From Chaetoderma sp. LZ-2023a (lineage: Eukaryota > Mollusca > Caudofoveata > Chaetodermatida > Chaetodermatidae), in assembly GCA_034401795.1 (NCBI GenBank), contig CM067372.1:12782940-12846939 (forward strand): a stretch of DNA of 64,000 bases, written 5' to 3'. The translations under genes were made by a program, and so were the position numbers. The notes beneath the pieces were generated by a model that made no database searches, was not told the origin of the DNA, and saw nothing but the letters and a program-made list of their open reading frames with translations. Of the stretch, positions 6,908 to 64,000 are shown one piece after another. Position 1 is the first letter of the stretch; the number at the start of each line of letters is the position of its first letter.

Positions 6908-8067
6908 TTAATCCAGAATTTCAGCCTGCACAGTTAGTATAATGGGATAGGTCCCCACTTCCCCATATATCATACAAGTGCCCGTGAACATTCTTAATTT
7001 CAGGATATGTCTGCAAAATTTCAGTTTTAATTTTTCTAACTCGTCTAAATTTTCGTACCCCCATATCTCACACCAGTATAACATTATGGGAGCCACCATT
7101 TTATCAAATAAGTTCAGTTGTAAATCTATTGACATGCGTAGGGCTCTACCTTTGCTTAGTAGCGCAAACATGGCTCTGTTAGCCTTTTCACCTAATTGTA
7201 ATCTACTTCGATAAAAACTACCATTTCTAGAAAATAAAATTCCCAAATATTTGTATTCTTTTACCTCTTCTACCACCTGGTCATTAAGTGTAAACAGAAT
7301 GTTATTATTACGTTTCTTTCCAAATACCATCACCTTGGTTTTATCAGTGTTGACCCTTAGTTTGCACATTTTGCAGTAAGATTTTAGTGCATCTAGTGCT
7401 TTCTGTAAGTCCTCCTTGGTGTCATAAAGGAGTACTGTGTCATCTGCATATAAAATATCTAGTTTAAACATATTCTGGATTTCGATGTTATTTGCCATCG
7501 TTAGATGGTTACACTGTTTGCTAGTAAGAAATGTGTCTAAATCATTTATAAACAGTGCAAATAGGAATGGTGATAGGTTTCCCATTGTCTAACACCGATA
7601 GATGACTGGAAAAAGGCAGATGTATAATTATTGGAGAAGACACAGGACGTCGCATTTTTGTATAGATTCACAATAACGTTGAGAAAACTTCGTGTAATTT
7701 GGCAATTAATCATTTGTGACCATAACGCTGTACGCTATACTGTGTCAAAAGCCTTTTCGTAATCAGTATAGGCGCAGTACGGCATTTGTCCTTTTAATTT
7801 ATACAAATCAATTAGGCATTTTAGTAAAGAGATGTCGTCTGTTGTTGAGTGATTTTTTCGGAAACCTGCTTGGTTCTCTTTAATTAGGCCACCCACTTCT
7901 GAGAATTGCGTCAATCTATTATTCAGGACACTTGTAAATAATTTTCCTAAACACGATAAAAGAGAGATGCCTCTATAGTTTTCAGTTGACTCTATGCTTC
8001 CTTTATTTTTGTAAATAAATACAATTAGTCCTAAAGTCCAGTCATCTGGTGTTATTCCTGTATTCAA
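6908..8067 (-). pseudogene. LINE-B reverse transcriptase (broken)
   Basis: The RT starts with MNTGITPDDWTLGLIVFIYK and ENYRGISLLSCLGKLF. QAGFRKNHSTTDDISLLKCL, then YTDYEKAFDTV (first catalytic Asp) follow. A TAG stop sits directly after FDTV near 7,736 where the family normally has Trp. The frame then continues as RTALWSQMINCQITRSFLNV to GVRQ, where a one-base loss near 7,585 shifts to GNLSPFLFALFINDLD. The catalytic LDILYADDTVLLYD and the thumb-like KEYKYLGILFSRNG follow. All core RT blocks can be read, so the lesions are only point and single-base changes. Confidence 0.88.
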
Positions 8068-55738: not shown

Positions 55739-56998
55739 ATAAGTAGAGTTAGCACATGCCTAGATACATTTTCCCTGAGTAGTGTTAGCACAGGCCTAGA
55801 TACAGTTTCCCTGAGTAGAGTTAGTGCAGGCCTAGATACAGTTTCCTTGAGTAGAGTTAGCGCAGGCCTAGATACAGTTTCCCTGAATAAAGTTAGCGCA
55901 GGCCTAGATACAGTTTCCCTGAGTAAAGTTAGCGCAGGCCTAGATACAGTTTCCCTGAGTAGAGTTAGTGCAGGCGTAGATACTGTTTCCCTGAGTATAG
56001 TTAGTGCAGGCCTAGATACAGTTTCCCTGAGTAGAGTTAGTGCAGGCGTAGATACTGTTTCCCTGAGTATAGTTAGTGCAGGCCTAGATACAGTTTCCTT
56101 GAGTAGAGTTAGCACATGCCTAGATACATTTTCCCTGAGTAGTGTTAGCACAGGCCTAGATACAGTTTCCTTGAGTAGAGTTAGCGCAGGCCTAGATACA
56201 GTTTCCTTAAGTAGAGTTAGCACATGCCTAGATACATTTTCCCTGAGTAGTGTTAGCACAGGCCTAGATACATTTTCCCTGAGTAGAGTTAGCACAGGCC
56301 TAGATAGTTTCCCTGAGTAGAGTTAGTGCAGGCGTAGATACAGTTTCCTTGAGTAGAGTTAGCGCAGGCCTAGATACAGTTTCCCTGAGTAAAGTTAGCG
56401 CAGGCCTAGATACAGTTTCCCTGAGTAGAGTTAGTGCAGGCGTAGATACTGTTTCCCTGAGTAGAGTTAGTGCAGGCCTAGATACAGTTTCCCTGAGTAG
56501 AGTTAGTGCAGGCGTAGATACATTTTCCCTGAGTAGTGTTAGCACAGGCCTAGATACAGTTTCCCTGAGTAGAGTTAGCACATGCCTAGATAGTTTCCCT
56601 GAGTAGAGTTAGTGCAGGCGTAGATACAGTTTCCTTGAGTAGAGTTAGCGCAGGCCTAGATACAGTTTCCCTGAGTAGAGTTAGCGCAGGCCTAGATACA
56701 GTTTCCCTGAGTAGAGTTAGTGCAGGCGTAGATACTGTTTCCCTGAGTAGAGTTAGTGCAGGCCTAGATACAGTTTCCTTGAGTAGAGTTAGCGCAGGCC
56801 TAGATACAGTTTCCCTGAGTAAAGTTAGCGCAGGCCTAGATACAGTTTCCCTGAGTAGAGTTAGTGCAGGCGTAGATACTGTTTCCCTGAGTAGAGTTAG
56901 TGCAGGCGTAGATACTGTTTCCCTGAGTAGAGTTAGTGCAGGCGTAGATACAGTTTCCCTGAGTAAAGTTAGCGCAGGCCTAGATACAGTTTCCCTGC
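55739..56998. repeat. 36-bp minisatellite, about 35 copies
   Basis: The unit is agagttagcgcaggcctaga followed by tacagtttccctgagt, 36 bp. Three main variants alternate: gcgcaggcctagatacag, gtgcaggcgtagatact and gcacatgcctagatacatt. Because 36 is a multiple of three, long frames stay open on both strands: SLSRVSAGLDTV on plus, LTLLRETVSRPA on minus. Two 2-bp losses (tagatagtttcc at 56,301 and 56,587) break the frames. These two lie 286 bp apart within a duplicated block. No start context, splice signals or related coding sequence adjoin it. Confidence 0.96.
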
Positions 56999-60279: not shown

Positions 60280-62038
<1,759 letters not shown>

Positions 62039-63269: not shown

Positions 63270-63429
63270 ATGTCGCTTTCGCTGGCGTTGCTTCTTCCCG
63301 CGATTATCATTATCGTATTTTGGTGGATGATAAAATCTTGGAAGCGCCACAAATTGTTGGATAAGATACCTGGACCACCAACACTCCCTCTCATAGGGAA
63401 CGCTCACATGTTCAGCAGCCAACCTGTAG
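63270..63429 (+). CDS. Cytochrome P450, first coding exon (partial gene)
   Basis: The ATG at 63,270 opens a frame of 53 codons plus one base ending at a GTAAGT donor (63,430). Residues 1-20 (MSLSLALLLPAIIIIVFWWM) are a hydrophobic signal anchor that would hold the enzyme in the endoplasmic reticulum membrane, followed by basic KSWKRHK. Then comes IPGPPTLPLIGNAHMF, the proline-rich hinge and PLIGN motif that begin microsomal P450s. This pattern resembles the CYP4 group of monooxygenases, which oxidise lipids and xenobiotics; the subfamily cannot be assigned from one exon. The haem-binding and other exons lie beyond the window. In-frame translation past the donor stops at once (TGA at 63,435), which supports the exon boundary. 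Confidence 0.85.
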
Positions 63430-64000
63430 GTAAGTGACGAACGCTCACATGTTCAGCAGTCAACCTGTAGGTAAGTGACGAACGCAGGTAAGTGACGAAC
63501 GCTCACATGTTCAGCAGTCAACCTGTAGGCAAGCGACGAACGCTCACATGTTCAGCAGTGAACCTGTAGGCAAGCGACGAACGCTCACATTTTCAGCAGT
63601 CAACCTGTAGGCAAGCGACGAACGCTCACATGTTCAGCAGTGAACCTGTAGGCAAGCGACGAACGCTCACATGTTCAGCAGTCAACCTGTAGGCAAGCGA
63701 GGAACACTCACATGTTCAGCAGTGAACCTGTAGGCAAGCGACGAACGCTCACATGTTCAGCAGTCAACCTGTAGGCAAGCGACGAACGCTCACACGCTCA
63801 CATGTTCAGCAGTCAACCTGTAGGTAAGTGACGAACGCTCACATGTTCAGCAGTCAACCTGTAGGTAAGTGACGAACGCTCATATGTTCAGCAGTCAACC
63901 TGTAGGTAAGTGACGAACGCTCACATGTTCAGCAGTCAACCTGTAGGTATGTGACGAACGCTCACGTGTTCAGCTGTCAACCTGTAGGTATGTGACGAAC
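63404..64000 (+). repeat. 41-bp tandem array copied from the exon 1 end and splice donor
   Basis: The unit is gtaagtgacgaacgctcaca followed by tgttcagcagtcaacctgta and g, 41 bp. Unit 1 is the true exon end (AACGCTCACATGTTCAGC, then CAACCTGTAG) plus the donor. Fourteen full copies of CCTGTAG are followed by a donor-like hexamer, plus one shortened copy (aacgcag then gtaagt near 63,488). Hexamers in order: GTAAGT twice, then the short copy GTAAGT, then seven GCAAGC, three GTAAGT and two GTATGT. The array continues past the right edge of the window. Confidence 0.93.

Follow-up and report, generated by a model that had tools for sequence, protein, structure and literature searches.

Background

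A minisatellite of the human gene IFI6 (6-16, G1P3) is said to provide multiple splice donor sites, as the title of a 1995 report by Turri, Cuin and Porter has it. According to a further account, two downstream repeat units of IFI6 serve as donors and three mRNA species result (PMC4526556). Intron gain by tandem duplication has been described for the RdRp gene of potato (PMC4974935), and minisatellites in the first intron for earthworm metallothionein genes (PMC12783039). Apart from IFI6, our searches of the open-licence literature found no minisatellite array at a splice donor. Here we describe a 41-bp minisatellite that lies over a predicted exon 1/intron 1 junction in Chaetoderma sp. LZ-2023a.

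The window and the P450 gene

The window, meaning the whole stretch of 64,000 nucleotides that was analysed (C14:12782940-12846939 of a 2.44-Gb genome), was extended by approximately 60 kb taken from near its right end onward. Over half of the window consists of a 34-kb array (21189-55209), in which a 50-bp unit is repeated about 681 times. A 36-bp array follows at 55742-56997 (35 copies), its unit length divisible by three, and carries long open frames over parts of both strands. The minus strand also holds a Tc1/mariner-type transposase at 60703-61734 (a 343-codon stop-to-stop frame with HTH_Tnp_Tc3_2 and DDE_3) and a reverse-transcriptase frame fragment at 6911-7588 (RVT_1), probably of a LINE.

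At the right end of the window lies the start of a predicted gene, twelve exons of which, joined at GT...AG boundaries, encode 508 residues without interruption up to a stop codon. Pfam p450 (PF00067) was matched across the joined exons at E 1.5e-112 (residues 34-503 of 508, a full-length P450 domain), which bore out the identity proposed in an earlier note on this DNA. An approximate human CYP4V2 sequence, used as the query, matched most of the protein, in order, over 27 kb; exon identity to this query, the only CYP4 compared, was about 33-63%. The heme-binding motif FSAGxRNCIG and the helix motif EVDTFMFEGHDTT, motifs of P450 family 4, were both read in the translated frame. The gene is predicted to be a complete, intact, CYP4V-like P450 with 12 exons. 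Intron 1 of the model is 7,405 bp long and in phase 1, with the acceptor TTTTATGACAG/CATTC (slashes mark splice junctions), and the reading frame is kept from donor 1 into exon 2 (...QPV-A-FFADV...). No close paralogue of exon 1 was found that could serve as an outgroup, the best match other than the gene's own being 34% at E 0.45.

Two other stretches were noted in the introns of this gene. The stretch L008:5147-5935 in intron 1 reads, by eye, very like the Tc1/mariner-type transposase of the window. Intron 6 contains a 56-bp array of about 11 units (L009:5018-5623) whose start is some 30 bp downstream of the donor of exon 6, and several of its units carry acceptor-like CTGTATTTCAG; the exon 6 donor itself, GTTTAA, has the lowest score among the 11 donors of the gene.

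The donor array

The following features, all on the plus strand, are referred to below.

63270..63429, plus strand: coding exon 1 of the CYP4V-like P450 (160 nt, phase 1 at its end), predicted from the 12-exon open-frame model, CYP4V2 exon matches and Pfam p450
63398..64000 and on to equivalent position 64489, plus strand: 41-bp minisatellite over the exon 1/intron 1 junction (TRF and unit list)
63430..63435, plus strand: donor 1, TAG/GTAAGT, the sole one of 27 from which the frame stays open into exon 2
63435..63437, plus strand: in-frame TGA, reached on retention of any repeat unit
63471..63487, plus strand: 17-bp partial unit, source of the extra CAG/GTAAGT at 63488 (TRF and site list)
63529..63823, plus strand: block of seven GCAAGC units with C and G alternating at unit position 32
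63824..64000 and past the window to the last donor at equivalent position 64480, plus strand: GTAAGT and GTATGT units

The array is 1,092 bp long and runs from 63398 past the window end to L008:1329 (equivalent to window position 64489), which is far beyond chance similarity. Each 41-bp unit takes 32 bases from the exon and nine from the intron. A script scan of the whole array returned 27 donor-like sites (14 GTAAGT, 5 GTATGT and 8 GCAAGC), all of which read AG/G; 24 of the 26 intervals between them measure 41 bp, one 17 and one 49. In the terms of a repeated-donor array of the IFI6 kind, a donor consensus (GTAAGT or GTATGT) stands in 19/27 sites and the weak GCAAGC in 8/27, and the repeat starts at the 3' end of a predicted coding exon and continues into the intron. 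A genome-wide DNA search gave seven matches, all at this locus, under a method that skips very common words and scores the best candidates alone.

Within the window, the earlier note had counted 15 donor-like sites, eight of GT and seven of GC type, in an array that starts in coding exon 1 and forms the beginning of intron 1; both statements hold, the second under the predicted exon model. Its description of every unit as ending in CCTGTAG applies to 14 of the 15 and fails for the site at 63488, which is preceded by AACGCAG and derives from the 17-bp internal duplication. The block of seven GC units is present as described, but the GC type is not confined to it, as an eighth such unit lies at equivalent position 64316.

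Splice-site strength and reading frame

Splice sites were scored using approximate human weights. Donor 1 scored 11.2, second among the 11 donors of the gene (range 0.2 to 11.9), and was equalled or exceeded by thirteen later donors (12 TAG/GTAAGT and one CAG/GTAAGT). GTATGT sites scored 8.4 and GCAAGC sites 3.1. Duplex energies with U1 were -11.3 kcal/mol for TAG/GTAAGT, -12.9 for the CAG/GTAAGT at 63488, -7.5 for GTATGT and -4.7 for GCAAGC. Given this poor pairing of GCAAGC (-4.7 vs -11.3 kcal/mol), the GC units are weak donors and not a second strong class. Intron 1 holds 24 sites scoring at least 8, 19 of them in the array. When the 26 sites after donor 1 were scored as acceptors, 19 reached at most 3.6 and seven fell at 4.1-5.5; the 11 real acceptors of the gene span 3.9-14.0, and only two of these (3.9 and 5.3) are exceeded by the best array site.

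If donor 1 is passed over, the codons are GGT AAG TGA, and a stop, starting six bases beyond the donor 1 junction, follows after 55 codons. Because this TGA comes first, all later donors would give one identical truncated frame. The earlier note had derived the truncation from a unit length of 41, which three does not divide, and from the TGA right after the first donor; the truncation stands whichever later donor is used, and unit length has no bearing on it, as the stop comes first. Measured back from the junction, the stop would sit at 33 nt for donor 2, at 50 nt for donor 3 and at 91 nt or more from donor 4 onward. Under the 50-55 nt rule for nonsense-mediated decay (NMD), which was derived from mammals, the NMD sensitivity suggested for such transcripts would hold from donor 4, while a transcript from donor 2 would escape and one from donor 3 would be borderline.

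Variation among units

The GC units differ from the GT units by linked changes at +2 and +6 (8/8 GC units). The earlier proposal of a T-to-C change at +2 that then spread by repeat expansion is supported as to the expansion of the GC type, and amended in that two changes and not one set the type apart. Unit position 32 is G in 4/8 GC units vs 0/17 GT units (Fisher p 0.0055, the units being related and so not independent). Inside the GC block, G and C alternate at this position, a pattern suggesting that dimers of 82 bp contributed to the spread.

Across the 24 units of 41 bp, 3/8 donor columns are variable vs 14/33 others. Minor letters average 2.4 per donor column vs 0.73 elsewhere, the former figure being inflated by three variants that were inherited in blocks. 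By neither measure are the donor columns better conserved than the other columns, and there is no sign of selection keeping the extra donors; weak selection would be compatible with so few independent changes. The array is entered from exon sequence that is unique, and beyond its last donor the intron sequence is unique again, as expected of tandem duplication, and a single 41-bp tandem duplication would account for the founding step.

A second array, at a J-domain gene

A search for three spaced copies of AGGTAAGT listed first an array at C1:3946653-3947812 (minus strand), which is likewise a donor-straddling minisatellite at an exon end. Its unit of roughly 29 bp, with 7 bases from the exon and 22 from the intron, is present 39 times, 35 times with GTAAGT. 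The next exon begins 2,086 bp on, and the joined peptide matched Pfam DnaJ (E 2.5e-21) and, among solved structures, many J-domain proteins; we take the gene to be DNAJC7-like. Read-through past the first donor again gives GGT AAG TGA. Downstream lies a tandem duplicate of the junction with a single donor (376 identities over 431 aligned pairs, not counting gaps), which shows the J-domain junction before expansion or, on a less simple view, after a renewed contraction.

The same AGGTAAGT search listed eight other arrays on C1 and at least two on C2. A third donor-word array, at C1:17198330-17198640, was array throughout the piece examined. With the P450 array excluded as the starting case, the one further array with a readable flank, that of the J-domain gene, stood at a donor (1/1).

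Frequency of tandem arrays

TRF was run on 200 kb (period 20-100, at least 2.5 copies), a non-random sample, and returned 33 non-overlapping arrays including the P450 one. The window together with its downstream extension (122.5 kb) contributed 25 of these, and 21 P450 loci (78 kb) the other 8. These 21 were scanned out of 30 loci; six held the 8 arrays, and by coordinates none of the 8 overlapped the matched P450 stretch. Extrapolated to the genome, this density would mean several hundred thousand arrays, and random fall among an assumed 200,000 introns should leave hundreds straddling donors before selection.

An enrichment of the donor word in arrays was looked for and did not emerge. Three-spaced-copy hits (overlapping, both strands) numbered 1,224 for AGGTAAGT, inside the spread of the same-composition control words GGAATAGT (3,002), AGATTGAG (1,692), GTGATAAG (942), AATGGTAG (1,704) and TAGAGTGA (2,058); the donor word and the five controls read backwards gave 664 to 6,550 hits. 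Distinct arrays, counted by eye on contig C1 with AGATTGAG left out, as the matches listed for it covered the early part of C1 alone, were nine for the donor word, one for GGAATAGT (two places 3 kb apart), three for GTGATAAG, five for AATGGTAG and 14 for TAGAGTGA. Donor-word arrays are therefore not clearly commoner than control-word arrays. Given the density of arrays and the lack of a clear donor-word excess, no special mechanism is needed for the origin of the P450 array, the location of which may well be explicable by chance in sequence so rich in tandem arrays.

Discussion

The account that we favour, and hold to be probable as a whole, is that of a minisatellite born over a splice junction, with donor 1 used mainly, the array close to neutral and the GC units a weakened type. 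As read from the sequence, a 41-bp tandem duplication across the end of exon 1 and the start of intron 1, in a CYP4V-like P450 gene that is otherwise intact, would have founded the array, and the duplicated unit would then have expanded to 27 donor-like copies. Splicing would proceed mainly from donor 1, the sole donor giving the full protein; donors 2 and 3 would perhaps be used a little and the remainder hardly, so most of the copies are probably unused. The GC units, with their linked changes, would be doubly mutated, weakened donors that spread through ordinary, near-neutral repeat turnover. This account is supported by donor 1 being in frame with exon 2 and by the 12-exon frame being open to its stop, as well as by the unique flanks, the lack of special conservation in the donor columns, the array density, the J-domain case with its unexpanded duplicate and the reported use of two downstream units in IFI6. 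Against it, and against the presumed preference for donor 1, stand the thirteen later donors with scores equal to or above that of donor 1; moreover, the upstream one of identical duplicated 5' splice sites is not always favoured. A literature search on choice between identical donors gave no paper on the point.

It is possible that copy number tunes P450 output, as the earlier note had supposed. Later donors would then compete with donor 1, stop-containing transcripts would be lost to NMD and array length would set the output. The crowding of strong intron 1 sites into the array (19/24) would favour such competition, and any retained unit brings a stop at once, placed from donor 4 onward at least 91 nt before the junction; but the donor columns show no special conservation and IFI6 is reported to use two downstream units. 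We consider this chain of events unlikely. Each unit could also be read as a GT...AG piece, so that re-splicing would restore the exact exon 1-exon 2 junction or recursive steps would cross the array. Re-splicing of this kind is possible in sequence logic, as AG precedes GT or GC at all 27 sites and seven of the 26 later sites score within the range of real acceptors, yet AG/GT arises automatically on copying any exon that ends in AG and is no evidence by itself. The other 19 score below all 11 real acceptors and the best beats 2/11, and animal introns are seldom anywhere near as short as 41 nt; self-correcting splicing is weakly supported and seems to us very improbable.

Slightly less credence again is given to a platform on which many U1 sites near the gene start would load U1 snRNP and shield the long first intron from premature polyadenylation. 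Pairing at -11.3 kcal/mol or better in 14/27 sites agrees with this, as do nine AATAAA or ATTAAA hexamers in intron 1 (nearest about 250 bp after the array; a count without a control), but pairing is weak in 8/27 units, and the J-domain exon is preceded by an acceptor-like site and so is probably not a first exon. Least probable of all is an assembly artefact: tandem repeats are prone to assembly error, but here the units differ among themselves, unique sequence borders the array on both sides and another gene carries a similar one. The favoured account, of a largely unused array behind donor 1, concerns one locus. A broader one, which we regard as unlikely, far less probable than that account and somewhat less so than length-dependent output at this gene, would have the donors of many genes in this genome amplified 10- to 40-fold, with a strong first-donor rule or GT...AG re-splicing coping with them and some arrays acting as copy-number rheostats. 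If true, the arrays would form a natural test series of 5' splice-site choice. Choice among identical donors has mostly been studied via artificial duplications; here a single genome offers natural series of them, one gene having 27 donor-like sites and another 39 units, and the spacing of strong and weakened variants is known. Such arrays would bear on position vs strength in donor choice, and on repeat length vs gene output.

Comparison with described systems

The human IFI6 minisatellite is a direct precedent for the P450 donor array. The two differ in that the IFI6 unit is 12 bp long, so that use of later donors adds a few residues only, whereas the 41-bp unit here brings an immediate stop. 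With the potato RdRp gene the P450 locus shares a tandem duplication reaching from exon into intron, by which splice signals are multiplied; unlike that case of intron gain, it multiplies the donor side, without a demonstrated new intron. With the earthworm metallothionein genes it shares tandem arrays inside the first intron, although the passages on those genes describe no donor repetition. The frame-stopping unit, the blocks of strong and weak donors and the occurrence at a second gene of the same genome are features for which we found no counterpart in the open-licence literature.
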